Of a stretch of 64,000 bases of DNA, positions 4,319 through 63,126 are shown one piece after another; position 1 is the first letter of the stretch, and each line of letters opens with the position of its first letter. Source of the stretch: Medicago truncatula (lineage: Eukaryota > Streptophyta > Magnoliopsida > Fabales > Fabaceae); the NCBI RefSeq assembly GCF_003473485.1, contig NC_053045.1, positions 35,438,494 to 35,502,493 on the forward strand, given 5' to 3'. The position numbers and the translations under genes were made by a program. Below the pieces are notes generated by a model. The model saw only the letters and a list, made by a program, of their open reading frames with translations. It did no database searches and was not told the DNA's origin.

Positions 4319-4357
4319 GTAACTAACACTTATAAGAGCGGGTAATCGAAAGCCCAT
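4319..4357 (-). pseudogene. SAUR 5' remnant (about 13 codons) joined to Copia sequence
   Basis: A start codon at 4355-4357 begins MGFRLPALI and the similarity to type B SAURs runs for about 13 codons, after which the sequence is Copia integrase-like. The upstream side keeps a normal type B SAUR leader and a TATA box (4474-4483). The SAUR core domain is absent, so no SAUR function is expected. It is the former head-to-head partner of the SAUR at 5162-5419. Confidence 0.75.
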
Positions 4358-5161
4358 TTTATGTGCTTATTTGGGAAAAGAAGAACAGAGCAAAGATATA
4401 AATATATTAAGAAGGATGTAACTAACACTTGACGTTGCCAATGACTAATGTTGTTTTTGAAGGAAATAGCAAGTATATTTATAATTATTGAGGTTCTCTG
4501 AAAAGTGAAAATCCGATTCCAATCTAAAATATTATTTGAAAGAGTTGAAAGTTAAAGAGCATAAGATAATATATCATGTGGCGTTGTCTTAAGATTGCAT
4601 TTATCGTACCCCACCTTCTAAGAAAATGGCCAATATAAAGCATCCACTTGCAACCAAATGAGACTTTCTCAAGTGCAGAGCAGCCTCATATCTGTTCGTG
4701 CATTAATTACTACTTCATAATTATGAAAACATGCTTAGACATGTTTTTTTTTTATTATAATAGTGTTGATGTCCAGATGCTAAATTATACTTTCAAGTTG
4801 ATTAATTATATGCTGGCCTCTGCTCAACAAGGTGGGACTTGCATTATCTATCTACCACAACATTTGATGTTGATCTTTGAGAAAGTCCTCAAAACTCTTA
4901 AGACAACACCATGTGATGTTTCATATGCTCTTGTCTGACCATGACTCAAATCTTATGGCCCTCATTCACTGAGCATTATAGTTGCCGACGATTTGTTAAG
5001 TATCCTTTCATCTATATATATTCATGGCTGCAAGCCTTTAGCACCAACACAAATCATTCACATTCCAACTCTCATTTGAAGTTCAAAAACTTGACTCTTT
5101 TCTATATACAAGTTTGTCTATTTTAGACCAATCTCTTCTTTTCAACACATACAATACGACA
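4358..5161. promoter_or_regulatory. Divergent SAUR promoter region 1
   Basis: Lies between the SAUR remnant (leftward) and the SAUR at 5162 (rightward). Leftward TATA box at 4474-4483. Rightward side: ACCATGTGAT followed by CATATG at 4922-4927, then TGTCTG, and TATATATA at 5013-5020, about 140 bp before the start codon. CATATG is the core of the NDE element known from soybean SAUR promoters, where it takes part in auxin response; its use here is inferred from position and conservation among the paralogues. Confidence 0.65.
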
Positions 5162-5419
5162 ATGGGTTTCCGTTTACCTAGTATCATCAAAAGGTCATCA
5201 TCTTCAAAATCTGTGGGCGTTCCAAAGGGATATCTAGCAGTGTACGTAGGAAAGGAGATGAAGAGATTTGTGATCCCTATATCATATTTGAAGCAAAAAT
5301 TATTCCAAGAACTGCTGAGCCAAAGTGAGGAACAATTTGAATATGATCATCCAATGGGTGGTCTCACTATTCCTTGCAGAGAAGAAGTTTTCTTAGACAT
5401 CACTTCTAGCTTGAATTGA
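5162..5419 (+). CDS. SAUR-family protein, type A
   Basis: 85 residues, one exon, full family length. The SAUR domain (PF02519 family) spans roughly residues 19-80, with [10 protein letters not shown] and [11 protein letters not shown] intact. SAURs are short-lived early auxin-response proteins; members of the Arabidopsis SAUR19 group inhibit PP2C.D phosphatases at the plasma membrane and so favour H+-ATPase activity and cell expansion. This start was chosen because MGFRLPS is shared by all paralogues; an in-frame upstream ATG at 5114 lies in the leader. It has SVGVPKG, GKEMKRF and YLKQK, features shared with the SAURs at 12,232 and 54,983, which also face Copia-joined partners. A DST-like 3' element (ATAGAT then GTA) spans about 5440-5472. 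Confidence 0.95.
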
Positions 5420-6695
5420 AGTAGCTCTGAAGATATTAGAAGATTGACATAGATATCTGATCAATTTTTGTATGAAATTAGTTTCTAACCTTCAAACGAT
5501 TTCCACTTTTGTTGTTATCATACTTGGATGTAAAACATTCATCGGAATGAGAAATTTATATACACTATTACATTATTTCTCTATTCCTTCCTTCCTCTTA
5601 ATTATCAATATGAAAATCGATTGCTAAATGTTCAGTTTATGATATCTCTGACAAAATGAAAAATTCATTTACTTCATTTATAAAATTGAATCTCCTCTGT
5701 TACAAAAAAAAAAAAAAAAAAAAAACTGATATAATTTAGTGGTCATAAATTAAGTATATATTGCGAAAAAATCTTCAAGAATAACACTGAGTCTAGCTAT
5801 ATTGATTTATTTGTAGTTTTATTTTGAGTCATAGATCCTGTTGTTGATTTGTAAAAAAAAATAAAAGGTTTATTTGCATTTACTTGTTGGCCAAGTTGAG
5901 CTTAGGCATGAATGTCACCTACAATTTCTTACAATTTTTGTTTTGAGAAAACTAGAAGAGTTAAAGACTTCAGAGCCATAAGATCAAGCAGGGAAATTTG
6001 AATCAACTTCAACCCCTGGAGTTGAAATAATTATCTGGCTTGTAAATTTAAATTAAACTTGTATAAAATTGAAGTTTAGATGCTAATTTTTACTTGGGAG
6101 ATAAGACAATAGTTAAAATAATGAGGTTCAAATTTTTCTTTTTTTGAATATATGTGAAATATTTAACCAAACTATACCTCTTAATATATAATCATCAATG
6201 GAATAAAAGACATTTTTTGAAGACATAGGCCAAACCTAATTAATTTAACTAAATTATTAATGGTTAATGATTTATTTCAAAAAATTTAGTTATTTACCTG
6301 GAATTAGCAAAACAGGTATTGCTGCATAGAAAGGTTTAGCTGGATTTTACAGAAATAAAAATAGCAGATTGTCTTTTTTCAACAGGCTCAAAGAACTAAC
6401 TATAACTTGTGGTAGGCTTTATTTTTTAAATCAATAAAATTATTTATTCTTCATAAGCAGGCTGATATTTAAGGAACTAACTATAGCTAGTGAAAGTTGT
6501 AACTGATAACGTAAATGAGCTCAATGATGTTATTAAACAATAAAAAAGAGGACAGCAATTTCTTTAATTTGTTATTCAAATAGTAAATTTTCTCCATTTC
6601 CCATGAAAAGGGTAATATTTACAAGTAAAAAAGATGCCTAAAATGAAAATTGTCTCAATTAATCTAGTCTATGTGAGTATGCTACAGTGTAAGAT
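5420..6695. other. Intergenic, convergent SAUR 3' flanks
   Basis: No gene seen. The left part is the type A downstream flank, also present near 12,490-12,980 and inverted near 54,480-54,980, with a poly-A run at 5702-5724. The right part is the type B downstream flank, similar to 13,200-13,950 and inverted 53,500-54,250. Confidence 0.6.
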
Positions 6696-6974
6696 TCATA
6701 GTCCATTCAAGGAAGAAATTATATGTTGGAAGACATCTTCCGTGCAAGGAATGGTGAGGCCACCCATGGGATGATCATATCCAAATTCTTCCTCGGATTG
6801 ACTCAACAAGTCTTGAAATGAAGGTTGGTTTAAGTATGATACAGGGACTACAAACCGCACCAGTTTCTCTCCAACATACACCGCAACATAGCCCTTTCTC
6901 ACTTCTACAGATTTTGATGTTGCTTGTCTAGCTGTTACCGATCCTCTTAGAATAGAGTTGAAATGGAAACCCAT
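6696..6974 (-). CDS. SAUR-family protein, type B
   Basis: 92 residues, one exon. The domain runs from about residue 25 to 88, with [12 protein letters not shown] and [11 protein letters not shown]. The N-terminus carries the type [13 protein letters not shown] segment and the end is SSLNGL. It differs from the SAUR at 53,215 only at residues 4 and 5 (HF here, RL there), and the two lie at mirror positions in the window, so they are recent inverted duplicates. HF replaces the RL found in most paralogues. TATA box at 7095-7104, about 120 bp upstream. Confidence 0.95.
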
Positions 6975-7796
6975 TTTTTTGTTATTGTTTGAGAGAAGAA
7001 CAAATAAAAAATCTCAAATGTAAAAAGGATGTAAGTTGAAACTAAATATTTGATGATGCCAATGAGTTGTCCTGTTTGTGAAGGCGAGAGGAAGTGTATT
7101 TATAGATTTTGAAGTTCTCTCAAAATCAAATTTCAACAAAAACTATTATTGAAGGGTTTGATGGATAGAGAGCATAGGGATAAGGTCTCATGTGGTGTTG
7201 TCTAAGAGTGTACCCTACCTTCTTAAACAAATGTCCAATACAAAGCTTCCACTTGCTACCAAATGAGATGTGCTCAAGTGCAGCCTCATATTTCTTCATG
7301 ATTTAATTGGTGTACTTCATAATTTTGTAAACATGCTTCAGACATGTTTTCTTCATTATGATAATGCCGATGTGAAGCTGGTAAGTGACTATAAGGCCAT
7401 GGATAACAATAGATCAACTCAAACCATTCTACATGTCTGTGGTTCTACTTTCAAGTCTATCTATCATATGATGCTTCTACTCAAGAATTATGCATTATCT
7501 ATCTACTACACCATTTGAAGTATATCCATTCATTTAGAGACAACACCATGTGATCTTTCATATGCTCTTGTCTGGCCATGACTCATATCTCATGGCCCTC
7601 CTTCATTGATCATTGTAGTTGCTGACGGATTCATTATTTATCCTTCATCTATATATATTAATGGCTGCAAAGGCATTTAGGACCAACAAAAAACCATTCA
7701 CATCCCAAGGCATTTGAAATTCAGAAACTTGAGTCTTCTATATACAACTCTTTCTTTTTTAGACCAAGCTTCTCTTTTAAACACATACATACAACA
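6975..7796. promoter_or_regulatory. Divergent SAUR promoter region 2
   Basis: Shared 5' region of the SAURs at 6696 (leftward) and 7797 (rightward). Leftward TATAAATACA at 7095-7104. Rightward ACCATGTGAT and CATATG at 7559-7564, TGTCTGG just after, TATA run at 7650-7658. A middle tract around 7420-7520 is conserved in most other pairs. Confidence 0.7.
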
Positions 7797-8057
7797 ATGG
7801 GTTTTCGTTTACCAAGTCTCATCAGATCAAGAGTATCATCTTCAAAAGCTGTGGACGTTCCAAAGGGATATCTAGCAGTGTACGTAGGAGAGAAAATGAA
7901 GCGGTTTGTGATCCCTATATCATATTTGAAGCAAACATCATTACAAGAACTGTTGAGCCAAGCTGAAGAACAATTTGAATATGAACATCCAATGGGTGGT
8001 CTAACTATTCCTTGCAGAGAAGAAATTTTCTTAGATATCACCTCTCACTTCAATTGA
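7797..8057 (+). CDS. SAUR-family protein, type A
   Basis: 86 residues with the full domain (about 20-81). Reads [23 protein letters not shown] and [12 protein letters not shown]: His-64 is kept, but the usual Asp before it is Glu, the only such change among the intact genes here. Ends SHFN rather than SHLN. YLKQTS is a mixture of the YLKQK and YLNQTS forms. A DST-like mRNA-instability element (GGA, TAGATAT, GTA) lies at 8081-8112 in the presumed 3' UTR. Confidence 0.95.
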
Positions 8058-10744: not shown

Positions 10745-11391
10745 AAGCAAATAAGTCAGATCCCAAATTACATTGATAAATAATACCATAATAATGAAAC
10801 TCAGAACCACTATGTGACCATGGAGGTATGTGAGTACAGACAAGTGTTTCAAATAAAGGAATAGGTAGCACATGAGTACTAACATCTTTTGCAGAATCAT
10901 ATGTAGCTGGTGTCACAAGTATCCTCAAAGAAAGTAACATGTGCAGAGATATAAAAAGGATGTGTAGATGGAAAATAACATTGATACCCCCTTTGAACTC
11001 TGGACTACCCCGAAAACACGCACTCGCTTGATAGACCGTGCATACAATCTTTCGCGGCCAGGTGGTAGATCATGAACAAAATATGTGGATCCAAACACTC
11101 GAATAGGAACAAAATACAGGAGGTCCTTATGAAACAAGAGAAATGTCGAATCACATTATCCAATATTGAAAATGACTTGTAGTTGATCTAACAACAGACG
11201 ATGAGAAGTGCAATACCTCAAATTTTGAAAGATGCATGAGCACTGATCAATAAGGTACGAGCTGTATCGAATACGATATTTCTGCTCAGCAACACTATTT
11301 TGTTGTCGTGTGTGCAGACAACTAGACTTATGATTTGTGCCCTGAAAGGTCAAGAGGAGTTTCATTGTGAAGAAAAGAATTCTTTGGCATT
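10745..11391 (-). mobile_element. Copia LTR-retrotransposon fossil, pol fragment 2
   Basis: Minus-strand similarity to Copia integrase and the linker that follows it, closely matching the corresponding part of fossil 1. The reverse transcriptase part present in fossils 1 and 4 is absent. No LTRs. Broken and old. Its integrase end abuts a SAUR start, as in fossils 1 and 4. Confidence 0.75.
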
Positions 11392-11430
11392 GTAACTAAC
11401 ACTTATAAGAGAAGGTAATCAAAAGCCCAT
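11392..11430 (-). pseudogene. SAUR 5' remnant joined to Copia sequence, second copy
   Basis: Start codon at 11,428-11,430 and a short SAUR-like stretch, then Copia integrase-like sequence at the same junction as at 4319. It is more decayed than that copy and does not remain open. Type B leader and TATA box (11,547-11,556) persist upstream. Confidence 0.65.
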
Positions 11431-12231
11431 TTTATGTGCTTATTAGGTAAAAGAAGAACAGAGCAAAGATATAAATATATTAAGAAGGATTTAACTAGCA
11501 CTTGAGGTTGCCAATGACTAATGTTGTTTCTGAAGGAAATAGCAAGTATATTTATAGTTATTGAGGTTCTCTGAAAATCCAATTCCAAGCTAAATTATTA
11601 TTTGAAATTGTTAACGATTAAATAGCATAAGATAATATAGCATTTGGTGTTGTCTTAAGATTGTACCCCACCTTCTCAAAAAATGGGAAATACAAAGCAT
11701 CTACTTGCAACCAATTGAGACTTTCTCAAGTGCAGAGCAGCTTCATATCTGTTCATGCATTAATTACTATTTCATAACTGTGAAAACATGCTAAGACATG
11801 TTTTATTTCATTATGATAGTGTTGATGTCAACATAAACCACTCTACATGTTTGTGGTTATACTTTCAAGTTCATTAACTCTATGCTGGCCTCTGCTCAAC
11901 AAGGTGGGACTTGCATTATCTATCTACCACAAGATTTGATGTTGATCCTTGAGAAAGTCCTCTAAATTCTAAAGACAACACCATGTGATGTTTCATATGC
12001 TCTTGTCTGAACATGACTCAAATATTATGGCCCTCATTCACTGATCATTATAGTTGCCGATGGTTTGCTAAGTATCCTTTCATCTATATATATTCATGGC
12101 TGCAAGCCTTTAGCATCAACACAAATCATTCACATTCCAACTCCCATTTGAAGTTCAAAAACTAGTCTTTTCTATATACAAGTCTGTCTATTTTAGACCA
12201 ATCTTTTCTTTTTAACACATACAATACAACA
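11431..12231. promoter_or_regulatory. Divergent SAUR promoter region 3
   Basis: Leftward TATAAATATA at 11,547-11,556 for the remnant. Rightward ACCATGTGAT, CATATG at 11,994-11,999, TGTCTG, and TATATATA at 12,085-12,092 for the SAUR at 12,232. Nearly the same sequence as region 1. Confidence 0.65.
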
Positions 12232-12489
12232 ATGGGTTTTCGTTTACCAAGTATCATCAAAAGGGCATCATCTTCAAAATCTGTGGGTGTTCCAAAGGGA
12301 TATCTAGCTGTGTACGTAGGAGAGGAGATGAAGAGATTTGTGATCCCTATATCATATTTGAAGCAAAAATCATTCCAAGAATTGCTGAGCCAAAGTGAGG
12401 AACAATTTGAATATGATCATCCAATGGGTGGTCTCACCATTCCTTGCGGAGAAGACGTTTTCTTAGACATCACTTCTCGCTTGAATTGA
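12232..12489 (+). CDS. SAUR-family protein, type A
   Basis: 85 residues, full domain. Same subtype as 5162 and 54,983 ([15 protein letters not shown]), but GEEMKRF and [14 protein letters not shown] at the end. Its upstream partner is the second Copia-joined SAUR remnant, so it is functionally unpaired. A DST-like element (GACTGACATAGATAT, then GTA) lies at about 12,500-12,531. Confidence 0.95.
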
Positions 12490-13947
12490 AGATATCAAAA
12501 GACTGACATAGATATTTGACCAATTTTTGTAGCACTTTAGTTTCTAACCTTCAAAAGATTTTCACTTTTGTTGTTATCATACTTGGATGTAAAACGTTCA
12601 TCTGAATGAGAAATTTTTGAACACTATTACATTATTTCTCTATTCCTTCCCCTTAATTATAAATATGAAAATCGATTGCTAAATGTTCAATTTATTATCT
12701 CTCTGATAAAATGAAAAATTCATTTACTTCATATATAAAATTGAATTGCCCCTGTTAGAAAAATAAAGAAATAAGAAACTGATATAATTTAGTGGTCATA
12801 AATTAAGTATATATTGTTAAAAGAATCTTCAAGAATAACACTGAATATAACTATATTGATTTATTTGTAGTTTTATTTTGAGTCATAGATCCTGTTGTTG
12901 TTTTGCAAACAAAAATGGTTTATTTGCATTTAGTTGGTGGCCAAGTTGATCTTAGGCATGGATGTCACCTACAATTTTAGACAGTTGCCAATTATCTAGT
13001 TTTTCTAATTATTTTGAAGGAGAAAATTTAAAAAACTCCTAACTTATACTATGTTTTTATATCAAATTGATATTTGTTGAGTATATATTATCGACCAGTA
13101 AAAAAAACGTACATATTATCTATAACAGATTCCTGTTCCCTACAGAAATATACAACTGAAACAACACAATACTGCGATTTTTTGTTTTGAGGAAACTAGA
13201 AGAGTTAAAGACTTAAGACCTAAGATCTAGCAGGGAAATTTGAAATTTGAATCAATTTCTACCCCTGGATTTGAAATAATTATTTAGCTTGTGAATTTGA
13301 AGAATGTAACCAAATTAAGTGAGAGAGCTTATGAATAAAATTGAAGTAGGTGCTAATTTGTACTTAGCAGATAAGGCAATAGTTATGATAATCATATCCA
13401 AATTTTTTCTTTTTTTGAATATATGTGAAATATTTAACCAAACACCTCTTAATATATAATCATCAATGGAAGAAAAGACATTTTTTGAAGACAAAGACCA
13501 AACCTAATTAATTTCGTTAAATTATCAATGGTTAATGATTTATTGCAAGAATTCTACTAATTTACCTGGAATTAGCAAAACAGGTATTGTTGCATAGAAA
13601 GGGTTAACAGGATTTTACAGAAATAAAAATAACAGATTGTCTTTTTTCAACTATAGCTTGAGGTATGCTTTATTTTTTAAATCAGCAAAATTATTTATTC
13701 TTCATATGCAGGCTTATATTTAAATAACTAACTGTAGCTAGTGAAAGTTAACTGATAAAGTAAATGAACTCGATCATTAAACATTAAAGAAGAGGACATA
13801 TATTTTTGAATTTGACATTCTTACGGTAAAATTTGTCCATTTCTCATGAAAAGAGTCATATATTTACAACTTCACAAGTCAAATAAATTCCTATTTGAAA
13901 AATGTCTCAACTAATCTAGTGTATGTCAGTATGTTACAATATAAGAT
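12490..13947. other. Intergenic, convergent SAUR 3' flanks
   Basis: No gene seen. Left part repeats the flank after the SAUR at 5162; right part repeats the type B downstream flank before 6696. Same arrangement as 5420-6695, as expected for a duplicated block. Confidence 0.6.
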
Positions 13948-14226
13948 TCATAGCCCATTCAAGCAAGAAGTTATATGTTGGAAGACATCTTCGGAGCAAG
14001 GAATGGTGAGGCCACCCATGGGATGATCATATCCAAACTCTTCCTCGGCTTGACTCAACAAGTCTTGAAATGAAGGTTGATTCAAGTATGATACAGGAAC
14101 TACAAACCGCGCCAATTTCTCTCCAACATACACGGCAACATAGCCCTTTTTCACTTCTACTGATTTTGATGTTGTTTGTCTAGCTGTTACCGATCCTCTT
14201 AGAATAGAGTTTAAACGGAAACCCAT
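13948..14226 (-). CDS. SAUR-family protein, type B
   Basis: 92 residues. [27 protein letters not shown]-type N-terminal half, [33 protein letters not shown] end. Very close to the SAUR at 42,246 (differences near residues 6, 10 and 31). Divergent partner of 15,027. TATA box at 14,328-14,337. Confidence 0.95.
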
Positions 14227-15026
14227 TTTTTGTTATTGTTTGAGAGAAAAACAAATAAAAAATCTCAAATGTAACTAAATATTTGATGATGCCAATCAGT
14301 TGTGCTGTTTATGAAGGAGAGAGGAAGTGTATTTATAGATTTTGAAGTTCTCTCAAAACCAAATTTCAAGAGAAACTATTATTGAAGGGTTTGATGGATA
14401 GAGAGCACAGGGATAAGGTAGCATGGGGTGTTGTCTTAGAGTGTACCCTACCTTTCCTAAACAATGTCCAATACAAAGCTTCCACTTGCTAAAAAATAAG
14501 ATGTGATCAAGTATAGCCTCATATTTGTTCATGATTTAATTAGCGTCAATAATTTTGTAAGCATGCTTCAGACATGTTTTCTTCATTATGATAATGCCGA
14601 TGTGAAGCTGGTATGTGACTCTAAGGACATGGATAACAATAGATCAACATAAACCATTCTACATGTCTGTGGTTGTACTTTCAAGTCTATCAATTATATG
14701 ATGCTTCTGCTCAAGAATTATGCATTATCTATCTACTACACCATTTGAAGTATATCCATTCATTTCGAGACAACACCATGTGATCTTTCATATGCTCTTG
14801 TCTGGCCATGGCTAAATTCTAATGGTCCTCCTTAATTGATCATTGTAGTTGCCGACTGTTTGTTAAATATCCTTTCATCTATATATATTATTGACTGCAA
14901 AAGCATTTAGCACCAACAAAAAATAATTCACATCCCAAGGCATTTGAAATTCAGAAACTTGAGTCTTCTATATACAACTGTTTCTTTTTTAGATCAATAT
15001 CTTCTTTTCAACACATACATACAACA
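14227..15026. promoter_or_regulatory. Divergent SAUR promoter region 4
   Basis: Leftward TATAAATACA at 14,328-14,337. Rightward CATATG at 14,789-14,794 preceded by ACCATGTGAT, with a TATA run at 14,880-14,888. Both partner genes are intact. Confidence 0.7.
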
Positions 15027-15284
15027 ATGGGTTTCCGTTTACCTAGTATCATCAAAAGGACATCATCTTCAAAAACCGTGGACGTTCCAAAGGGATATCT
15101 AGCAGTGTATGTTGGTGAGAAAATGAAGCGGTTTGTGATTCCTGTATCATACTTGAACCAAACCTCATTCCAAGAACTGCTGAGCCAAAGTGAGGAACAA
15201 TTTGAATATGATCATCCAATGGGTGGTCTAACTATTCCTTGCAGAGAAGACATTTTCTTGGATATTACCTCTCACTTAAATTGA
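15027..15284 (+). CDS. SAUR-family protein, type A
   Basis: 85 residues: [60 protein letters not shown]. It combines the KR N-terminus of the 5162 subtype with the YLNQTS and SHLN features of the 18,238 subtype. DST-like block at 15,308-15,341. A decayed tRNA-Ser copy follows about 450 bp downstream. Confidence 0.95.
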
Positions 15285-15544
15285 ATTAGCTCTTTGAAGA
15301 TATCATAGGACTGACGTAGATATTTTACTCATTTTTTTGTAGATGTTGTTATCATACTTGTTGTAAAAATGTTCATCTCAATGAGAAATTTATTTGCATT
15401 ATTTTCTCTATATTTCTCGATATATAAATCTGTAAATCAAAACATCTTTAAACGATATATTGGAAGATTCAGTTATTTAAATATAAAACCAACCCCCCCT
15501 TTTACAAAAAGAAAATTAAAGTTAAAAGTAACTATCATGATTTA

Positions 15545-15727: not shown

Positions 15728-15735
15728 AACAACAA

Positions 15736-27260: not shown

Positions 27261-27263
27261 TAA

Positions 27264-37018: not shown

Positions 37019-37032
37019 CCTCTTTTGTAGAA

Positions 37033-49164: not shown

Positions 49165-50620
49165 GGCTTAACCATATTAACCGAACCAAACTGAACCGAA
49201 GTGTTGAAATGGTTCGGAATAACCGAACCGAACCATTTAAGGTTTGAAACTAACCGAACTGAACCAAAGTTATGGTTCGGTTAACCGTTTGCTTGCCTAT
49301 TAACCGAACCGAACCAAAACCAAAATTTTGAACCGAAATGTATTTTTTACCCTTTTGCGAATTTAATTGTGTTTTTTTTTTTCCTTTTTAAATTTAATTG
49401 CCAATGACCGTACCAATTCGATGCTCTAAATAACAAATTTTTGAGATTCATTCTGTAAAAAAAAAAAAACTCGGATCTAATTATGTGGTTGATCCTAAGG
49501 AAAATATGCATAAGCAACAGTATGGTTTATAAGGAGAATTTGAGGCTTATTGCTGTCAGTTTGGAAGTTACTGCTAATGCAAATGAGAACATAAAGAGTC
49601 CTTTGAGGCAACTAATATTGTAGGCCACATATGATGTATCTTTAAATTTGCTGGTATGCAGTGACATCTGATTTAAATTTGCATGAATCAACAGGCAAAT
49701 GTCTCTTAGTGAATCGGTTATTTAGTAATTATGTGACAATGAGTAGACCATTTATTGATTAACCTTAACAAAGTTTACTTCAACAATGCCGCTACAATCT
49801 CAACCTGATCAAGAAGCTTATAAGTTTAGAGTTAAAATTATAATCAAAATCTATTTTGAATAAGCTGTTTAACATAAAATAAGCTGTTTTGAATAAGTTT
49901 TTTTTTTAAATGAGTTGTTTTGAATAATCTGTTTTTTAAAATAAGCTATTTGGAATAAGCTGTTTTTAAAATAAGCTGTTTTAATAAGTTATTTTTTAAA
50001 ATAAGCTATTTTCATAAAATAAGTTGTATTGAATAAGCTGTTTTTTAGAATAAGTTATTTTGCATAAAATAAGTTGTTTTCAAAATAAGCTGTTTTGAGT
50101 AGGTTTTTTTTTATTTTTAAATAAGCTGTTTTCATAAAATAAGTTGTTTTGCATAAAATTAGCTGTTTTGAATAAGCTATTTTTAAAAATAAGATGTTTT
50201 GTATAAAATAAGCTGTTTTAAATAAGTTGTTTTTTTAAATAAGTTGATTTGCAAAAAAATAAGTTGTTTTGAATAAGCGGTTTTTAAAAAGATATTGTAA
50301 TAAGTTGTTTTGCATAAAATAAGTTGTTTTGAATTAGTTGTTTTTTAACAAGAGATCGTTATAAGTTGTTTTGCATAAGACAAATTGTTTTGAATATGTT
50401 GTTTTTAAAAAGAGATCACTAAGTTGTTTTGCATAAATAGATATGGTTAATGGTTCGATTCGGTTAACCAAAGTTATTAAAGGTTCAGTTCGGTTAGTGA
50501 ATTGCTGTCAAAATAATGGTTCAGTTCGAGAACTTTCGAAATGGTTCAATTAATTTTGATATAGTTCAGTTCGGTTAACCGGTTCAATATGGTTTTTGGT
50601 TATTTTTTCCCACACCTACC
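49165..50620. mobile_element. AACCGAACC-rich inverted-repeat element with minisatellite core
   Basis: The left part has repeated AACCGAACCGAACC phrases with AACCATATTAACCGAACC; the right end holds the inverse, TCGGTTAACCGGTTCAATATGG. Between about 49,850 and 50,440 is a degenerate tandem array. No protein. Probably a non-autonomous DNA transposon; boundaries approximate. Confidence 0.5.
49850..50440. repeat. Degenerate minisatellite (AATAAGCTGTTTT units)
   Basis: Thirty or so imperfect units of AATAAGYTGTTTTGAATAAG and TGTTTTGCATAAAATAAG types, strongly T-biased on the plus strand. Lies inside the inverted-repeat element. Confidence 0.8.
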
Positions 50621-51285: not shown

Positions 51286-52149
51286 ACAAGAGAGGGGTAG
51301 CTATGGCTACCCCAAAAAAATAAATTTTATTGAGTTAGTAGGTATATTTTTATGTTTAGCTACCCCTAATAATATATATTTGGCTACCCCAAGTTCGATT
51401 TTAGGTGTAATAATTTTTTATGACTTTGGTTACTTTCGGGTGGCCACCTCATAAAATTATTGCTAGCTTCGCCTCTGTAAAGAGACATCCTTTATTATGC
51501 AGGAAATATTCAGGAATTTGCCACTGGCCCTCTATCACAAAATCAGCAACTTTCATTAAGTAGAGGTTGAGTTCGAACTATGGTCAAGCAACAACTTTAA
51601 AAAAATATAGGGAGAGTTTTCTTGTCTGTGGTTTTATTTGACTCCAGAGTCGAGATACTCGATTTATTAAAAACAAATTAGGAGATTTTTAAATACTTGA
51701 CATAGATTGAAAAAGGATATTAGCTACAGCCTGCGGCTCAAAGAACTGGGCTGAATGGTGTCTTACCTTTTTACTACCCTGTGTTGTGGGCTTAAGTGGA
51801 AAAATTAGAGAAAGTGGATTTGCACCCTTGATTTAATCGGATATCTGTGTTTTGATTGACTGTGTGACTGCGCCATTTTTTTTACTGCAGTGAATCACAA
51901 TCTAGATTCTAAATTGAACATATGCTTTGATTTTCAGATTTATATTTAATGGGAAATACACAGTAACACAATAATAATGTTAATAAATTTGTCATTGAGA
52001 TGAACTTTTTACAACCAAGTATGATAACAATAATAATGTTAATAAATTTGTCATTCAAAAGAGAAACTCTTTTCAAGGTGAGAAACTATACTACTACAAA
52101 ATTGGGTCAAATATCTACGTCAATACTATGCTAACTTCAAAGATTTGAT
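51286..52149. other. Intergenic, type A downstream flank at right
   Basis: No gene seen. 51,550-51,670 resembles 38,030-38,160 and 61,000-61,110. A short local duplication (AATAATGTTAATAAATTTGTCATT) occurs near 51,981 and 52,031. No tRNA in this flank. Confidence 0.5.
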
Positions 52150-52410
52150 TCAATTCAAGCGAGAAGTGATATCTAAGAATACTTCTTCTCTGCAAGGAAT
52201 AGTGAGACCACCCATTGGATGATCATATTCATATTGTTCTTCAGCTTGGTTCAACAATTCTTGGAACGAGGTTTGGTTCAAGTATGATATTGGGATCACA
52301 AACCGCTTCATTTTCTCTCCTACATACACTGCTAGATATCCTTTTGGCACGTCAACAGCTTTTGAAGATGATACCCTTGATCTGATGATACTTGGTAAAC
52401 GAAAACCCAT
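52150..52410 (-). CDS. SAUR-family protein, type A
   Basis: 86 residues: [17 protein letters not shown] as in 7797, [26 protein letters not shown] with Tyr for Phe in [20 protein letters not shown]. Mirror counterpart of 7797 in the inverted array. Partner of 53,215. Confidence 0.95.
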
Positions 52411-53214
52411 TGTTGTATGAATTAAAAAGAGAAGATTGGTCTAAAAAAAAGAGTTGTGTATAGAAGACTCAAGTTTCTGAACTTCAAATGCCTTGGGAGG
52501 TGAATGATTTTTTGTTGGTGCTAAATGCTTTTGCAGCCTTTAATATATATAGATGAAAGGATATGTAACAAACAGTCGGCAGCTACAATGATCAATGAAG
52601 GAGGGCCATGAGGTTTGAGCTATGGCCAGACAAGAGCATATGAAAGATCACATGGTGTTGTCTCTAGATGAATGGATAAACTTCAAGTGTTGTAGTAGAT
52701 AGATAATGCATAATTCTTGAGCATAAGCATCATATAATTGATAGACTTGAAAGTAAAGCCACAAACATATAGAATGGTTTATGTTGTTATATTGTTATCT
52801 ATGGCATTATAGTCACTTACTAGCTGGACATCAGCATTATCATAATGCAGAAAACATGTCTAAAGCATGTTTACAAAATTATGAAGTACACCAATTAAAT
52901 CATGAAGAAATATGAGGCTGACATCTCATTTGGTAGCAAGTGGAAGCTTTGTATTGGACATTTGTTTAAGAAGGTAGGGTACACTCTTAGACAACACCAC
53001 ATGAGACCTTATCCCTATGCTCTCTATCCATCAAACCCTTCAATAATAGTTTCTCTTGAAATTTGGTTCTGAGAGAACTTCAAAATCTATAAATACACTT
53101 CCTCTCTCCTTCATAAAGCACAACTCATTGGCATCATCAAGTATTTAGTTAAAACTTACATCCTTCTTACATTTGAGATTTTTTATTTGTTCTTCTCTCA
53201 AACAATAACAAAAA
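52411..53214. promoter_or_regulatory. Divergent SAUR promoter region 13
   Basis: Leftward CATATG at 52,637-52,642 and TATATATA at 52,544-52,551. Rightward TATAAATACA at 53,088-53,097. Inverse counterpart of region 2. Confidence 0.7.
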
Positions 53215-53493
53215 ATGGGTTTTCGTTTAAACTCTATTCTAAGAGGATCGGTAACAGCTAGACAAGCAACATCAAAATCTGTAGAAGTGAGAAAGGGCTA
53301 TGTTGCGGTGTATGTTGGAGAGAAACTGGTGCGGTTTGTAGTCCCTGTATCATACTTGAATCAACCTTCATTTCAAGACTTGTTGAGTCAATCCGAGGAA
53401 GAATTTGGATATGATCATCCCATGGGTGGCCTCACCATTCCTTGTACAGAAGATGTCTTCCAGCATATAATTTCTTCCTTGAATGGACTATGA
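53215..53493 (+). CDS. SAUR-family protein, type B
   Basis: 92 residues: [55 protein letters not shown]. All residues but two agree with 6696, its mirror-image copy. TATA box 118 bp before the start. Confidence 0.95.
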
Positions 53494-54982
53494 ATCTTAC
53501 ACTGTAGCATACTCACATAGACTAGATTAATTGAGACAATTTTCATTATAGGCATCATTTTTACTTGTAAATATTACCCTTTTCATGGGAAATGGAGAAA
53601 AAAATACTATTTGAATTACAAATTCAAAAAATTACTGTCCTCTTTTTTATTGTTTAATGACATTGAGCTCATTTACTTTATCAGTTACAACTTTCACTAG
53701 CTATAGTTAGTTCTTTAAATATCAGCCTGCTTATGAAGAATACATAACTTGGCTGATTTAAAAAAAAATCCTACTACAAGCTATGTTCTTTGAGCCTGTT
53801 GAAATAAGATAATCTGTTGCTTTTATTTCTGTAAAATCCAGCTAAATCTTTCTATGCAATAAAACCTGTTTTGCTAATTCCAGGTAAATAACTAAAGTTA
53901 TTGAACTAAATCAATAACCATTGATAATTTAGCCAAATTAATTAGTTTTGGCCTGTCTTCAGAAAATGCCTTTTTCCATTGATTATATTTAAGAGGTATA
54001 GTTTCGTTAAATGTTTCACATAAATTCAAAAAAAGCAAAAGTTGAACATGATTACTTTAACTATTTTATTATCTCCTAAGCAGAAATTAGCTCCTACACT
54101 TCAATTTTATTCAGAATCTATCTCACTTAGTTTATTAGTAAACACCATTAAACTTACAAGCTAAATATTTATTTCAATTCCTATAGTTTGAAATTGATTC
54201 AAATTTCCAACTGGCTCTTAAGTCTTTAACCCTTCTAGTTTTCTCAAAACTGAAAATCACAAACTTTTATTGTTTCAGTTGAATATTTATGTGGGGAACA
54301 GGCCCTCTATAAACTTCTAATGTTTGGCAAGGAAGTGCCTCGCGTATTCCTTATAGTATAAGGAATCTGTAATAGATAATATGTACCTTTTTTTACTGGT
54401 TGATGATATATACTCAACAAATATCAATTTGATATAAAAACAAAGTAAAAGTTAAGAGTTTTTGAAATTTTCTCCTTCAAAATAATTACAAAAACTAGAT
54501 AATCTATATAATTGGCAACTGTCTAAAACTGTAGGTGACATCCATGCATAAGCTCAACTTCGCCAACAAGTCAATGAAAATAAACCATTGTTAGATCAAT
54601 ATAGTTGGATTCAGTGTTTTTCTTGAAGATTCTTTTCGCAATATATCCTTAATTTATGACCACTAAAATATATCAGATCCTTTTTTTTTTATTGCAACAG
54701 GGGCGATTCCTTTTTATATATGAAGTAAATGAATTTTTCATTTTATCAGAGAGATCATAAACTGAACATTTAGCAATTGATTTTCATATTCATAATTAAG
54801 GGGAAGTAATAGAGAAATAATGTAATAGTGTTTAAAATTTCTCATTCAGATGAACGTTTTACATTCAAGGTATGATAACAACAAAAGTGGAAATCTTCTA
54901 AAGGTTAGAAAATAGAAACTAATTTGATACAAAAATTGGTCAGATATCTATGTCAATCTTCTAATATCTGCATGGAGCTACT
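53494..54982. other. Intergenic, convergent SAUR flanks
   Basis: No gene seen. The inverse of 5420-6695 in layout and sequence, so the two belong to the inverted duplication. Confidence 0.6.
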
Positions 54983-55240
54983 TCAATTCAAGTTAGAAGT
55001 GATATCTAAGAAAACTTCTTCTTTGCAAGGAATAGTGAGACCCCCCATTGGATGGTCATATTCAAATTGTTCCTCAGCTTGGTTCAACAATTCTTGGAAT
55101 GATTTTTGCTTCAAATATGATATAGGGATCACAAATCTCTTCATGTCCTTTCCTACATACACAGCTAGATATCCCTTTGGAACGCCCACAGATTTTGAAG
55201 ATGATGACCTTTTGATGATACTAGGTAAACGAAAACCCAT
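54983..55240 (-). CDS. SAUR-family protein, type A
   Basis: 85 residues: [55 protein letters not shown]. Mirror copy of 5162 (both have GK before the acidic residue). Its head-to-head neighbour is the Copia-joined SAUR remnant at 55,968. Confidence 0.95.
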
Positions 55241-55967
55241 TGTTGTATGTGTTGAAAATAAGAGATTGGTCTAAAATAGACAGACTTGTATATAGAAAAG
55301 ACTCAAGTTTTTTAACTTCAAATGAGTTGGAATGTGAATGATTTGTGTTGGTGCTAAATGCTTGCAGCCATGAATATATATAGATGAACGGATACTTAAC
55401 AAACCGTCGGCAACTATAATGATCAGTGAAGGAGGACCATAGGATTAGAGTTATGTTCAGACAACAGCATATGAAACGTCACATGGTGTTGTCTTCAGAA
55501 TTTAGAGGACTTTCTCAAAGATCAACATCAAATGTTGTGGTAGGTAGATAATGCAAGTCCCACCTTGTTGAGTAGAGGCCAGCATATAATTAATCAACTT
55601 GAAAGTATAACCACAAACATGTAGAGTGGTTTATGGATCTATTGCTATCTATTGCCTTGTATAGTTTAGCATCTGGACATCAACACTATCATAATAGAAA
55701 GAACATGTCTAAGCATGATTTCACAGTTATGAAGAAGTAATTAATGCATGAACAGATATAAGGCTGCTCTGCACTTGAGAAAGTCTCAATTGGTTCCAAG
55801 TGGAAGCTTTGTGTTGGCCATTGTTTGAGAAGGTGGGGTACAATCTTAAGACAACGCCACATGCTATATTATCTTATGCTCTCTAACCTTTAACTCTTTC
55901 AAATAATAATTTAGCTTTGAATCGAATTTTCAGATAAACTCAATGACTATAAATATACGCACATAAA
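55241..55967. promoter_or_regulatory. Divergent SAUR promoter region 14
   Basis: Leftward CATATG at 55,468-55,473 and TATATATA at 55,375-55,382. Rightward TATAAATATA at 55,948-55,957, only about 11 bp before the remnant's ATG because most of the leader has been lost. Confidence 0.65.
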
Positions 55968-55995: not shown

Positions 55996-57720
55996 GTGTT
56001 AGTTACATGGCATCCCACTACAGTCTAGTTGTCCGCACACACCACATCAAAATGGTGTTTCCAAGTGGAAACATCGTCATCTACTCGTACCTTATTGATT
56101 AATGCTCATGCACTTTGAAAACATTGAGGTGATGTTGTTCTCACAACATCTTATTTGATCAAGTGTATGCCATTCTCGGTATTGGATAATGAGATTCCAC
56201 ATTCTCTCTTGTTTTATAAGCCCCCGCTGTATTTTGTACTTTTACGAGTGTTTGGATCCACTTCTCTTGTTCATGTTCTATCTCCTGGCTGTGAAAAATT
56301 GTTTACAGGAGATATCAAGTGTGTGTTTCAGGGGTACTGCAGAGTTCAAAAGGGGGATCAATGTTATTGTCTATTTACACGTCATTTTTATGTTTCGACA
56401 GATGTTACTTTCTTTGATGATACACCTTACTTTGTGACACCAGGTACATCAGATTCTAAAACATATATATGTTAGTAATCATGTGGTACATATTCCTCTA
56501 TTTGAATGATCTATCTCTACTCACAGACCTCCATAGTCACATAGTCATCCCGAGTTTAAGTGTTATTGTACTACTAATCAACGTCAATGTGTTGATGCTC
56601 AAGAGACAGTTCCTACCTCTTCCGGTGATTTAGATTTTGTTCATATTACTTCTAACCGTCATTATATATATAACTTTTTGAGTTATCATCGCTTGCCTCC
56701 ATCGATCTCACTATGTTTTTGTCTCTATTATATCCGCTATCTCTATTCATAAGTTCATCCAGAAAGTAATATCACATCCAGGATGGCGACAAGCAATAAT
56801 TGTTGAAATGAATGCATTGGAGTCTGTGTACATGGAAGTTTGTTCCATTACCTCCTCGAAAATCTATTTTGGTTGTCAGTGGGTCTTTGCTATTAAAGTA
56901 TGTTATCATGAACAAATGGATCATACAAAAGGTCAATTGGTAGCAAAAGTATACCCTCAAATTTATGGTTTGGACTATATTGGTACCTTGCAAAAATGGT
57001 TTATGCTCGTCTTTCTTTGTTAGTGGCTGCTATCAAACATTTACCTTTGTATCTTATTTCATGAAGTCTTAGAAGAGGCGATGTATATGCAGTAGCCACC
57101 TGGCTTTATTGCTTAGGGTGATTTTGGTCTTGTTTACAAGTTAGAAAAATCATTGTACGGTCTAAAGCAATCAGCTTGAACTTACTTTTGAAAATTCAGC
57201 AAGCTTATTCAATAATTTGGCAGGATTCATTGTGAAGCTGGTCATTCTGTATTATTTAGACATTCATCTTCAAACAAAGTCATTTATTGAGTGGTATATG
57301 TGGATGATATTTTTATTACCGATAATGATTAAGAAGACATTAAAAACATAAAAAATAATTTATTCAACCACTTTCAAACCAATTATTTAAGCCAATTGCG
57401 TTTTTTTTTTTGGGAATGAAGTAACACAAACACATGAAGCTACTGCTATTTCTTAGAGAAAATATGTTCTTGATATCTTGGGAGAAACATGGATGCTCGA
57501 TTGTAAACCAGTTGCTACTCCTTTGGACCATAATGTGAAGCTTTTACAAAATCATGGAGAGTGGTATCCTGATCCAGACAGATACAGGAGGCTAGTTGTG
57601 AAACTGAATTATCTCACTATTCTTGTCTCTCCTCCTCTCACTTATTTGCTTGTCTCTCTTTTTTCTGACTTACTTGCTTCTGTATATGCAGGAAGAATTC
57701 ATTTAGCAAAGAATTGAATT
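55996..57720 (+). mobile_element. Copia LTR-retrotransposon fossil, pol fragment 4
   Basis: Plus-strand similarity to Copia integrase, linker (around 56,155-56,475), start of reverse transcriptase (around 56,780-57,020) and later RT/RNase H part (around 57,450-57,620). Inverse counterpart of fossil 1 and the longest of the four. No LTRs, gag or protease. Broken many times, old. Confidence 0.78.
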
Positions 57721-58229: not shown

Positions 58230-60003
58230 CTAGACCAACTTGTAGTAACAATTGTTTGCACAGATTAGAACCTCATATCCCTTGCCACATGGACACTTGA
58301 AAGTAAGGCTTAAACACTTATCAACCCACTCCACACTAACAGCTTCTTCATAATCATTTCCCAATTCATCCTACAAAAACAAAAATGAACTGTTCAGCAT
58401 AAAAACTATTAATCTGAAAGTCATGTTTATAGTTTTAACTTGTTGTCGCCAAAACTACATCGCAATTGCAGCCGCTTTTTAGAGGATTTTGAGGTCTCTA
58501 CAAGGGCGTCACAAACACAATTTTAGTCACATCGGCCGCATTTCCCCACAATGTAAAGGTTCACATCGTGACCACAAGTGCGACTGCAATCGCAATTTAA
58601 AACAATGATTACAAGTGCAACTATGATCACATCAACAATTTATTATGCTTCTTAGCCAAACCCCCAGATCCTACATATTTAAGTGGAACAAAAGGTGGCT
58701 ACACTACACATGAAGTTGTAATGAGGCCAAAAGTTTAGGTAGTGTTATGGCTATAAACATTCAAACACGGGAATAAAGGTGGCTACACTACACATGAAAC
58801 TATAATTGAATATGTCATCTTCATTCTTCAGTATGTTCCTGTCTTAAAATTTAGCATTTTTACCCTTCGATATAAAACCTCTAACTCTAACATATTGCCC
58901 ACAAAATTCTTGAAAAGAAGAGTGTTTATTCTTACCTAGATTCGGTAAATTAAAAACCAAAGGAAAAATGCAGTGGAGGGAAGCACATCACACAGTTGAT
59001 CAAATAATTTTTTTACTTCAGATATGTATATGTCGATAAGGGAAAGTCCAGATCCTATATAATTGAGTTGTTAAAATTGCTGCACATAAACTATGATTAC
59101 AAATGCAACTATGATCAAATTCAATACCTTCCCGTAACCCCCGGATTCTTCGTAATTAAGCAAGTGCAACTAGGATATACATAAAAATAAGAAATAACTT
59201 GTAAGTACCAATTAAAGAACCAACTACATTGAAGATTACATAGAAAAGACAATCACAGTTGAAGATTCAAGACATGTACCTGCGATATGACTTTTTCATC
59301 TTCAGCAACAAAAGAGTCAAGAGAGTGCTCTTCTTGTTCTTGTTCTTTTTCATCCTTTTCATCTTCAGCATCAGGAGAGGGCTCTTCTTCTTGTTGTTCT
59401 TTTTCATTTTCTTCCTCGACTTCCATAACTTCATCCCACACTTTCTTCATTTCTTTTAACCGATCCTTCATCCTTTTAAGCCTCTACGAAAAACAAACAA
59501 AACCCATTATTCCAAATCAAAAAAAGAGTACTTTTTTATCAAGAAACACAAGTTTCAACACATACCATTGAATCAGATTCAGGGGTGGTTTTTTTAGCAG
59601 AGTTCAAATAACGAGCTACTGCTTCTTTAACCTCAAAAGGATCAATAACTTCAGATATACATCTGCTGATCGGAGGCTGAGGCTGCAAAGCAGTTGACGG
59701 CCCTTTTACCGGCATGGATTGATCCGGCAAGGTGCAAGGATCAGAGACACAGCGGCTAAGAGCATTCCCGCGGAGACTGAAAGGAAGTGTAATGGCAGAG
59801 AAGCCATTACGGGTGAGATTGCTTGCGTCAAAAGAATGCTTCTTGGATGATGGTTGGTGGGCAGATGATGATGATGGTGAACGGCGTTTGACAGAGTTGT
59901 TGTGAGTGTGATGATGAAGCATTGATGATGTTGGAATAATCATGGATTGTTTCTGTTTGTGAGGGATCAACATGGATTCTTGTTGAATCTGTAAATCACC
60001 CAT
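58230..60003 (-). CDS. Uncharacterised three-exon gene, copy 4
   Basis: Minus strand; exons 60,003-59,566, 59,483-59,280 and 58,370-58,230, phase 0, giving 260 codons. Exon 1 reads NNSVKRR, SSSAHQPSSKKHS, ALQPQPPISR and LNSAKKTTPE, a few residues away from copies 1 and 3. Exon 2 has one acidic EEPSPDAEDEKDEKEQEQ repeat (68 codons). Exon 3 with CPCGKGYEVLIC is unchanged. A longer in-frame reading from 60,183 covers the TATA run and leader and is not conserved. The exon 2 acceptor reads CGTAG and its donor side CGCAG-GTAC, both usable. Confidence 0.85.
58459..58599. repeat. Small inverted-repeat element in intron 2, second copy
   Basis: Inverse of 21,629-21,768 with the same CATCGCAATTGCAGCCGC and GCGACTGCAATCGCAATTT ends. 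Confidence 0.5.
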
Positions 60004-60083
60004 TCTTCTGAATTGTTTTCTTTTTTGATTGTAAAGTAAGTGTGAGTGGCAAAGAGTTATGAAAAAAGAGGGATGGTTTGAGT

Positions 60084-60118
<35 letters not shown>

Positions 60119-61776
60119 GGAGATGGTATATGATGATCTGTTGAGGTTTTCAAGGGTAACTGATTTTCTGTCTTCAAAATCAAATCAAAATGTTTAAAAG
60201 AAAATAAGTTTTACATAATTTGTATTTGAGAGATACAAACCAAAATGGATTTCTGGCTGGTCATGACATTTTTTATTATATACACCCTGAGTCTGGAAAT
60301 CAATTTTACAGGGGTGGACTTATTGTTGAGAAAAAAATGATCATAAGATGCGAAAATCTCAACAAATTATACTTAGTTATTTAAGCCTGTTGAAATGAGA
60401 TAATTGCTACTACTGTCTCTCTGAATACTAGCTAGCATAATTAGGGTCATTGTTCATCCAGTTTTGCAAATTCGAGGTAGCTAACTAAAATGCTCGCACG
60501 AATTCAATAACTATTGATGATCTAGCCAAATTGATAAGGCTCGGCCTATGTTTTCAGAAATTGCATTAGCAGTGATTATATATTCATTAAGAGCTGTTTT
60601 GGTTAAATTTTTCACATATACTCAAAAATGAAAAGTTGAACATGATTACCTTAACTAATATCTTATCTCCCAAGAAGAAATAAGCTTCTATACTTCCAAT
60701 TTTTTCAGATCTCTCTAACTCAGTTTATAGGTAAAAACATCCAGAACTTACTGGTAACACCATCAGAGTTCAGATATTTCTTTCTCATACAAGTTTATTC
60801 ACATCAGTATTTCATTTATAGTGTGCAGAACAATAAAAAAAAAAAAAAGGGTAATATATATAACAAAAGAAGAGAGGACTCAAACAGAGGACTCAATAAT
60901 TCATGCTATTTTTTAGAGTTAGGAAACAGTAAAAAAATTCAAGAGTGCTTGGATGATATGCCATGAGTACTTAGATAAGATGTCCCAAGTATCTTCCTAT
61001 CTAAATAGAGGTTTCCGGTTCTAACTATGTGAATGCAACAACGTTAAAATGTTCAGGGAGAGTTTTGCCGTGGTTTTATTGGACTCGACAATTGAGAAAC
61101 GTGATTTGTAAAAACAGAAGTAGTAGATGGTAAAATATAGTCCTATGTTTATAAATTGAGATTATAGATTTTTTACAGCAAAATTGAAATTTGCCTTTCT
61201 TTTTTGAGAACAAAATTGTTTAGACATTTCACAACAAAAGAAAAAAAATATATTATCAAAGAATTTGACTATAAAATGTAGAGGTAACTATTTTTAACTC
61301 ATTTTTTTTATTAAAAAAAAAAACATAATTTGATAAATTAAATAATTGTTAATATGATTTGAGAAACCATGTTTTTGCTATCTAAATTCTATCCAATAAT
61401 TCTGTGTTCTCTGCAGATATTTTTTCCGCAATATATACTTCAATTATTATTGTTAAATCAATATAGTTTACTTTTTAATTTCCATTTTTTGCATTAGGGG
61501 AGGATTGATTTTATAATTGAACAACTGAATCTTCCATTATATCCTCTAGAGATTCTAAACTGAACATTTAACAAATATAGATGCATCGATTCTTAGAATG
61601 GCATGTAAGAAAAACACAGTAATAATGTGTTAATAAACTTCTCATTGAGGTGAACATATTTACAAGCAAATATGATAACAACAAAAGATAAAATCTTTTG
61701 AAGGTGAGAAACTAAACTGCTACAAAACTGGGTCAAATATCTATGTCATGTCCTATGATATCTTCAAAGAGCTAAT
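60004..61776. other. Promoter of copy 4 and SAUR flanks
   Basis: TA run at 60,096-60,118 is the likely TATA region of copy 4; 60,160-60,260 is the inverse of bases 1-60. 60,360-60,720 is type B-like flank. 60,900-61,776 is type A downstream flank; its tRNA, expected near 61,300-61,390, is missing. Confidence 0.55.
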
Positions 61777-62037
61777 TCAATTCAAGTGAGAAGTAATATC
61801 TAAGAAAATGTCTTCTTTGCAAGGAATAGTTAGACCACCCATTGGATGGTCATATTCAAATTGTTCCTCGGCTTCGCTCAACAATTCTTGGAATGAAGTT
61901 TGGTTCAAATATGATACAGGAATCACAAACCGCTTCATTTTCTCTCCTACGTACACTGCTAGATAGCCCTTTGGAACGTCCACAGCTTTTGAAGATGATG
62001 CCCTTGATCTGATGATACTACGTAAACGAAAACCCAT
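61777..62037 (-). CDS. SAUR-family protein, type A
   Basis: 86 residues: [24 protein letters not shown] with Arg for Pro at residue 6, [24 protein letters not shown] with Glu for Gln, [17 protein letters not shown]-like element (inverse) at 61,721-61,753. Partner of 62,848. Confidence 0.95.
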
Positions 62038-62847
62038 TGTTGTATGTATGAGTTAAAAGGAGAAGATTGGTCTAAAAAGAAAGAGTTGTGTATAGAAGAC
62101 TCAAGTTTCTGAACTTCAACTGACTTGGGATGTGAATGATTTTTTGTTGGTGCTAAATGCTTGATGCCATGTTTATATATAGATGAAAGGATATGTTACA
62201 AACAGTCGACAACTACAATGGTCAATGAAGGAGGACCATGAGAATTTAATCATGGCCAGACAAGAGCATATGAAAGATCACATGGTGTTGTCTCTAAATG
62301 AATGGATATACTTCAAATGGTGTAGTAGATAGATAATGCATAATTCTTGTGCAAAAGCATCATATAATTGATAGACTTGAAAGTACAAACCACAGACATG
62401 TAGAATGGTTTATGTTGATCAATTGTTATCCATAGCCATGTAGACACTTACCAGCTGGACATCAGCATTATCATAATGAAGAAAACATGTCTGAAGCATG
62501 TTTACGAAATTATGAAGGAAACCAATTAAATCATGAAGAAATATGACGTTGCACTTGAGCACATCTCATTTGGTAGCAATTGGAAGCTTTGTATTGGATA
62601 TTGTTTAAGAAGGTAGGGTACACTCTAAGACAACACCACATGCTACCTTATCCCTATGATCTATATCCTTCAACCCCTTCAATAATAGTTTTTCTTGAAA
62701 TTTGGGTTTGAGAGAACTTTAAAATCTATATATAAACTTCCTCTCTCCTTCACAAACAGAAAAACTCATTGCATTATCAAATATTTAGTTACATCCTTCA
62801 TACATTTGAGATTTTTTCTCTGTTCTTCTCTCAAACTATAACAAAAA
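62038..62847. promoter_or_regulatory. Divergent SAUR promoter region 15
   Basis: Leftward CATATG at 62,267-62,272, TATATATA at 62,174-62,181. Rightward TATATATAA at 62,727-62,735, where most type B genes have TATAAATACA. Confidence 0.68.
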
Positions 62848-63126
62848 ATGGGTTTCCGTTTACACACTATTCTAAAGGGTTCAGTAACGTCTAGTCAAGC
62901 AAAATCAAAATCTGTAGAAGTGAGAAAGGGCTACGTTGCAGTGTATGTTGGAGAGAAACTGACGCGGTTCATAGTTCCTGTATCATATTTGAACCAACCT
63001 TCATTTCAAGACTTGTTGAATCAAGCTGAGGAAGAGTTTGGATATGATCATCCAATGGGTGGCCTCACCATTCCGTGCACCGAAGATGTCTTCCAACATA
63101 TAACTTCATGCTTGAATGGCCCTTGA
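62848..63126 (+). CDS. SAUR-family protein, type B
   Basis: 92 residues: [72 protein letters not shown] replaces ARQ and the last residue is Pro, not Leu. Closest to 42,246 and 47,191. Confidence 0.95.

Follow-up and report, generated by a model that had tools for sequence, protein, structure and literature searches.

The 64,000-nucleotide stretch of Medicago truncatula DNA analysed here (contig NC_053045.1, positions 35,438,494 to 35,502,493; called the window below) carries a cluster of SAUR genes, most of them arranged head to head around an intergenic control region. The DNA is AT-rich (GC 0.30-0.36). With five SAUR proteins encoded in the window as queries, tblastn recovered 26 intact SAUR coding sequences together with damaged copies. 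All 26 are uninterrupted reading frames in the DNA, encode 85-99 amino acids and comprise 10 A-type genes, 15 B-type genes, one of which occupies an A position (39657), and 1 distant C-type gene. The profile scan covered 3 of the 26, one of each type, and returned PF02519 (Auxin_inducible) with 90.7 (A), 84.3 (B) and 77.5 bits (C) against a cut-off of 26.3; the remaining genes were assigned by tblastn to SAURs of the window. One A protein had no match in a search of solved structures.

Layout of the SAUR cluster

Fifteen head-to-head units were counted by combining tblastn with an alignment of the intergenic regions (14 units) and with region searches (the fifteenth unit, P28), the same number of divergent arrangements as in the original prediction. 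These units are related by descent and hence do not represent 15 independent events. Eleven are intact, ten being A/B pairs and one a B/B pair, and four have a lost or broken partner; the earlier figures of ten intact arrangements and nine A/B pairs were each one too low. The two start codons lie on opposite strands and 685-822 bp apart in 11/11 intact pairs, thus less than 1 kb and in keeping with the predicted 0.65-0.82 kb. The head-to-head A/B layout is real, and the original prediction is to this extent partly confirmed. That nearly all SAURs sit in such pairs was too generous: the A/B pairs hold 20 of the 26 intact genes, and each of the 10 intact A genes faces a B gene, but six genes lie outside them, namely both members of the B/B pair, three B genes that have no partner but retain control sequence of the A side, and the distant SAUR at 33837, which is unpaired. 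Nor is the A/B design strict, since it applies to 10 of the 11 intact pairs and is broken by 39657, where a B-type coding body stands behind an A-like promoter. The units are as follows, each named by the handle used below.

P07, 6696-8057, pair: A 6696-6974 (-), B 7797-8057 (+); start codons 6974/7797, 822 bp apart
P14, 13948-15284, pair: A 13948-14226 (-), B 15027-15284 (+); start codons 14226/15027, 800 bp apart
P17, 17252-18498, pair: A 17252-17530 (-), B 18238-18498 (+); start codons 17530/18238, 707 bp apart; a mosaic of a P24-like A part and a P44-like B part
P24, 24318-25580, pair: A 24318-24590 (-), B 25320-25580 (+); start codons 24590/25320, 729 bp apart
P36, 35691-37018, pair: A 35691-35969 (-), B 36755-37018 (+); start codons 35969/36755, 785 bp apart
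P39, 38713-39920, B/B pair: B 38713-38970 (-), A-position gene 39657-39920 (+); start codons 38970/39657, 686 bp apart
P41, 41175-42524, pair: B 41175-41435 (-; within a longer reading frame, 41175-41558), A 42246-42524 (+); start codons 41435/42246, 810 bp apart
P44, 44076-45300, pair: B 44076-44336 (-), A 45022-45300 (+); start codons 44336/45022, 685 bp apart
P46, 46181-47454, pair: B 46181-46441 (-), A 47191-47454 (+); start codons 46441/47191, 749 bp apart
P52, 52150-53493, pair: B 52150-52410 (-), A 53215-53493 (+); start codons 52410/53215, 804 bp apart
P62, 61777-63126, pair: B 61777-62037 (-), A 62848-63126 (+); start codons 62037/62848, 810 bp apart
X05, 4331-5419, damaged unit: A-position start and nine codons 4331-4357 (-), then retroelement-like sequence; intact B 5162-5419 (+)
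X12, 11402-12489, damaged unit: A-position start, stop at codon 4, then X05-type junction sequence; intact B 12232-12489 (+)
X54, 54983-55958, damaged unit: intact B 54983-55240 (-); homology to other units stops at 55958, by retroelement remains
P28, 27685-28560, damaged unit: control region kept; A-type pseudogene 28342-28560 (+) lacking its first ~20 codons
Type C, 33837-34136 (+): lone, more distant SAUR of 99 amino acids

No B coding sequence was found in P28 by tblastn or region searches. The type C gene shows no match to the pair control region outside its coding sequence. Two fragments were also noted: a weak C-like one at 61220-61276 (tblastn E 0.1), and the 3' part of a B-type coding sequence at 40513-40659 (-), which adjoins P41 and is 89-94% identical to seven B genes over ~175-209 bp.

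The control region between partners

The intergenic regions of 14 units can be aligned end to end and that of P28 matches by blastn; the control regions are homologous across 15/15 units. Mean synonymous divergence (dS) is 1.03 between A and B genes, as compared to 0.42 within A and 0.44 within B. Because the control regions share descent and A and B differ more from each other than the members of either type do, the pair layout looks ancestral.

Each gene has a TATA box of its own, as had been predicted for the two ends of the region. Of the 11 intact A-position sides, 10 carry an exact TATAAATA 111-135 bp upstream of the A-position start codon, and the eleventh, in P62, differs by one mismatch; CTATATATA is exact on 14/14 B sides, 120-152 bp before the B start. 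Further upstream, AGACAACACCA sites are found ~220 bp before A and ~255 bp before B, each in the sense of its own gene. At one mismatch or fewer, this motif has 27 matches in the window where 1.41 are expected, and 26 of them, as judged by reading the list, lie at these two places in own-gene sense, the exception being 55459. On the A side, AGACAACACCACATG is present within 1 mismatch in 14/15 units, P44 having a one-base deletion; the B-sense motif has at most 1 mismatch in 12/15 units and two or three in P17, P24 and P44. Between the two lies a near-palindrome, AAACATG-N6/7-CATGTTT, exact in 11/15 units (0.02 expected per window) and with 1-2 mismatches in the other 4. In the 12 units whose intergenic region has two defined ends, its relative position is 0.41-0.47 of the length; it is 0.37-0.47 in X12, X54 and P28, whose ends were set by hand, so that both ends and positions are approximate there. 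In P07 the three elements are:

7193-7203 (-): A-sense AGACAACACCA motif
7329-7349: central near-palindrome AAACATG-N7-CATGTTT
7538-7572 (+): B-sense block AGACAACACCATGTGATCTTTCATATGCTCTTGTC, the top conserved block in 20- and 30-column windows

A 12-column scan of the 802-column consensus finds only two blocks at a mean conservation of at least 0.96, which are the A- and B-side AGACAACACCA sites. Wider windows add the central block, the B-side TATA and 5' untranslated region (UTR) blocks, all of them above the 95% column-shuffle limit. Conserved A-side motifs had been predicted and are present, but conservation is not confined to that side: the highest rank goes to the B motif block in windows of 20 or 30 columns and to the central block in windows of 45. 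Divergence across the region, obtained from 21 comparisons (P17, P24 and P44 versus the other seven pairs), is overall about that of A 4-fold sites (0.305 versus 0.322). The central block is far below this value (p-distance 0.11-0.16 in two 25-column windows, versus 0.32 at A 4-fold sites), and the spacer between the centre and the B motif reaches 0.42-0.71; one 25-column window between the B motif and the B TATA is also at 0.71.

The intergenic region thus resembles a pair of TATA promoters set back to back around a near-palindrome, with a AGACAACACC motif in own-gene sense in each, and shared control of both partners is possible. A stronger proposal is that of a true bidirectional module, in which the central palindrome would act as a common enhancer and selection would hold the pair together. 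The retention of the region in 15/15 units speaks for it, as does a central block that is palindromic, close to mid-region and among the most conserved; a separate TATA box and own-sense motif for each gene speak against it, as does the freely variable spacer between centre and B motif. On balance with the evidence on partners given below, such a module is conceivable but rather unlikely.

Within the conserved elements, CATATG is presumably part of the soybean SAUR NDE element. The accessible part of one source names the NDE elements S000360 and S000370 without giving their sequence (PMC9659022), and another gives TGTCNN as the auxin response factor core (PMC10690724). In PMC5735953, auxin response element (AuxRE) motifs were no different between SAUR promoters and a random control group, and AuxRE presence is therefore a weak guide to SAUR promoters. 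The elements conserved here may bind auxin-response and other factors; each promoter would be auxin-responsive in its own right, and both partner genes might respond to auxin together.

Duplication and the histories of the partners

The original prediction took the pair to be the unit of duplication. The ancestral A/B layout has indeed been copied many times with its intergenic region, but the copied block is often larger than a pair: in a self-comparison, 11546-15462, which carries a lone-B unit plus a pair, matches 51969-55958 in inverted orientation. P36 matches other units over little more than the stretch from A stop to B stop. Ancestral though the pair layout is, what was copied was not always a single pair.

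The same junction sequence follows the A-position start in X05 and X12, so loss of A probably predates their duplication. The lone B genes of X05, X12 and X54 are still constrained, with ratios of nonsynonymous to synonymous divergence (dN/dS) of 0.22-0.35 that rest on six to eight synonymous changes per comparison; six paired comparisons are tighter (0.10-0.18). This difference leaves room for an effect of the partner, but the counts are small, and there is only a hint that partner loss may relax selection on lone B genes. For the bidirectional module it is a point in favour, whereas the persistence of lone B genes as intact, constrained reading frames is a point against.

Retroelement-like remains occur at the broken ends of the lone-B units (2784-4330, ~11150-11400 and 56022-57717). 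Beside the X54 end at 55958, a reading frame contains an SH3_retrovirus domain at 56167-56475 (Pfam). The region 56022-57557, which holds this frame, is in inverted orientation 66.6% alike in DNA to 2784-4254. The reading frame at the X05 junction (4139-4357) has no Pfam match; by our own reading of its residues, backed by this likeness, the junction appears copia-like.

The head-to-head form could also be an accident of the ancestral duplicate, copied segmentally without selection for pairing. Blocks often larger than the pair, loss of a partner in 4/15 units, continued constraint on lone B genes and an intergenic region diverging overall at about the A 4-fold rate all agree with passive hitch-hiking of this kind. 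It accounts less well for the conserved central block, and for the fact that no intact A gene (0/10) is unpaired and that spacing is held at 685-822 bp, although homology alone could produce the latter two. We put this explanation at a little below even odds; it is partly compatible with the reading preferred below.

Partner histories were compared in 10 of the 11 intact pairs by Mantel, approximately unbiased (AU) and dS tests, P39 being left out because its A-position gene is B-type. The coding tree splits A from B, with the exception of 39657, which groups with the P36 B gene (support 91.6/96). Distances between A coding sequences are correlated with those between intergenic regions (Mantel r=0.83, p=0.0002; 0.91 for the A half). 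For B coding sequences no such correlation is seen, either with A coding sequences (r=-0.05, p=0.56) or with intergenic regions (r=0.18, p=0.12). In AU tests on the A data, the B tree (p=0.00015) and the intergenic tree igB are rejected and igA is not (0.10); on the B data, the A (0.0009), igA (0.0007) and igB (0.012) trees are all rejected. Fixed differences were counted between two pair lineages, P17, P24 and P44 versus P07, P14, P52 and P62 (7 of the 10 pairs), at columns gap-free in all seven: there are 21 among 278 in A, 90 among 621 in the intergenic region and 0 among 258 in B (Fisher A versus B, 8.4e-7), with similar numbers of columns variable within lineages (A 64, B 57). The last ones lie ~52-22 bp upstream of the B ATG. 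The partners of a pair do not share one history, contrary to what the original prediction implied when it took the pair to have duplicated as a whole. The agreement of A coding and intergenic histories favours the bidirectional module; the decoupling of B coding bodies from the region counts against it.

Stronger constraint on B, with no exchange, might by itself keep B genes alike across lineages, and dN/dS is slightly lower in B than in A (0.18 versus 0.23). Synonymous divergence between the same two lineages is halved as well, however (0.604 in A, 0.289 in B), and B genes of one lineage differ at synonymous sites as much as B genes of different lineages do (dS within lineages 0.19-0.49). 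On this synonymous evidence, constraint alone was set aside as very improbable.

Individual units are mosaic. The A genes of P07 and P52 are alike (dS 0.10) and their B genes are not (0.27); the A coding sequence and A-side half of P52 are near-copies of those of P07 (p-distance 0.03-0.04), which does not hold for B. P17 is P24-like in A (18/22 informative sites) and P44-like beyond B (120/139), and P41 is P14-like in A (19/28) and P46-like in B (39/50) and in both flanks. The 39657 gene has an A-like promoter up to ~-60, a stretch from -60 to 0 that is equally like other B genes (0.82-0.85), and a coding sequence and 3' flank like those of the P36 B gene (0.81-0.94). A DST-like stretch is common to these two genes alone: the strict pattern GGA..ATAGATT of the DST element, a feature of SAUR 3' UTRs, occurs in the 3' flanks of 2/26 genes (P39 A-position and P36 B), and looser TAGAT..TTTTGTA forms are seen by eye in B 3' flanks. 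Coding bodies have probably been exchanged between pairs while promoters stayed, and ectopic gene conversion or recombination is the simplest reading of these comparisons. The data do not separate conversion from crossing-over, of which we infer the former.

To account for the observed arrangement, homology, conserved elements and discordant histories, we favour, at a probability of about 0.78, the amplification of back-to-back promoters as a cassette with circulating coding bodies. An old head-to-head cassette would have consisted of gene A, a control region of 0.7-0.8 kb and gene B. Fifteen copies of it, four of them damaged, would have come about mostly within segments duplicated in tandem or in inverted orientation. 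Both genes have a TATA promoter of their own, in which one and the same module (AGACAACACC with CACATG or CATGTG) stands in the sense of the gene it precedes; the near-palindrome near the middle may serve both. After duplication, ectopic gene conversion or recombination would have carried coding bodies, from 5' UTR to 3' UTR, from one cassette to another and left the promoters where they were, so that partners would share position and control elements but not ancestry. The likelihoods given above to the bidirectional module and to hitch-hiking overlap with this one, as both are alternatives within or beside the cassette reading.

Several points weigh against the cassette reading. Compared as wholes, the two promoter halves do not score significantly above chance for mirror likeness (25, against a null distribution with mean 21.0, sd 2.4 and maximum 32), and the idea of A and B promoters as inverted copies of each other is not upheld at that level. 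Motif counts are not independent because the units are homologous. The Shimodaira-Hasegawa test, unlike AU, keeps the igB tree for the B data (p=0.137), and the B tree is poorly resolved, most nodes being at 40-67 with P41+P46 as the supported exception. The A 3' flank has no fixed differences either (0/116), with 60 columns variable within lineages because P17 is unlike P24 and P44; the value of 0/106 in the B 3' flank must be taken with caution, as the A 3' flank lacks lineage signal too, and the case was therefore rested on the coding regions. The permutation p of 0.0002 obtained by the mosaic scan in 8/8 chosen triplets overstates the signal, as poorly aligned flanks and uneven constraint are included; its best-segment limits are coarse, and per-region counts were relied on instead. 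Finally, such repeats may be misassembled in a single assembly.

A bolder version would make the locus a mirror-symmetric two-way auxin switch, whose central dyad would work both ways and to which each gene would add its own-sense AGACAACACC module; selection would keep the cassette fixed while gene conversion swaps SAUR coding bodies, in one case (39657) bringing a B protein under an A promoter. We regard it as unlikely.

Known systems and neighbouring features

The soybean SAUR locus of McClure and co-workers (1989) reportedly packs several intronless, auxin-induced SAUR genes into a few kb, with strands alternating; their promoters are reported to have NDE/DUE elements, one of which contains CATATG. 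Divergent SAUR genes are in this sense already known; the present locus may differ from that of soybean in having 15 units with two coding types, partners whose histories disagree, and a palindrome at the centre. In gene clusters that evolve in concert, gene conversion homogenises coding sequence among copies and leaves discordant, mosaic relations between neighbouring segments; such homogenised and mosaic sequence is seen here too. In contrast to concerted evolution in general, homogenisation here stops close to the start codon, and the promoters keep their lineage-specific differences.

Legume SAUR expansions are likewise known: PMC7789510 gives 141 SAURs in Medicago and 236 in soybean, with a very large Fabaceae expansion in clade 1. 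The present cluster looks like one such expansion, its clade membership being conjectural. That paper suggests that genome duplication was responsible, whereas what can be seen in the window is segmental duplication on a local scale, together with exchange. The units also resemble divergently paired genes and bidirectional promoters as described in PMC2670823, PMC3024869 and PMC3834115, which are adjacent, on opposite strands and start less than 1 kb apart (ATG distances being used here), but the partners here are paralogues and the pair is repeated many times. Among the matches listed by a literature search that left most subscription journals outside, no paper dealt with head-to-head SAUR pairs, SAUR bidirectional promoters or A/B cassettes with mosaic coding bodies, the last being the evolutionary twist of this locus.

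SAURs form a very large early auxin-response family whose redundancy hampers dissection. Should coding bodies circulate among cassettes whose promoters stay put, the time and place of expression of a SAUR could hardly be read from protein similarity, and the naming of SAUR orthologues from coding trees would mislead. Repeated, diverged copies of one two-way control region would also offer a natural series for locating auxin-response elements.

Besides the SAURs, the window contains an unrelated gene, whose product of 155-184 amino acids begins MGDLQIQQESM..., in three copies with 85-94% alike surrounding DNA:

264-731 (+): first copy
20402-20869 (+): second copy
59539-60093 (-): third copy

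The two copies that were scanned have no Pfam match. These genes were duplicated along with segments of the cluster. Two repeat arrays were also noted: at 48062-48433, 31-bp GGTCCCTTAACT repeats form two arrays that face each other in opposite orientation, and 49854-50437 is a long AT-rich tandem array of AATAAGCTGTTTT-type units.

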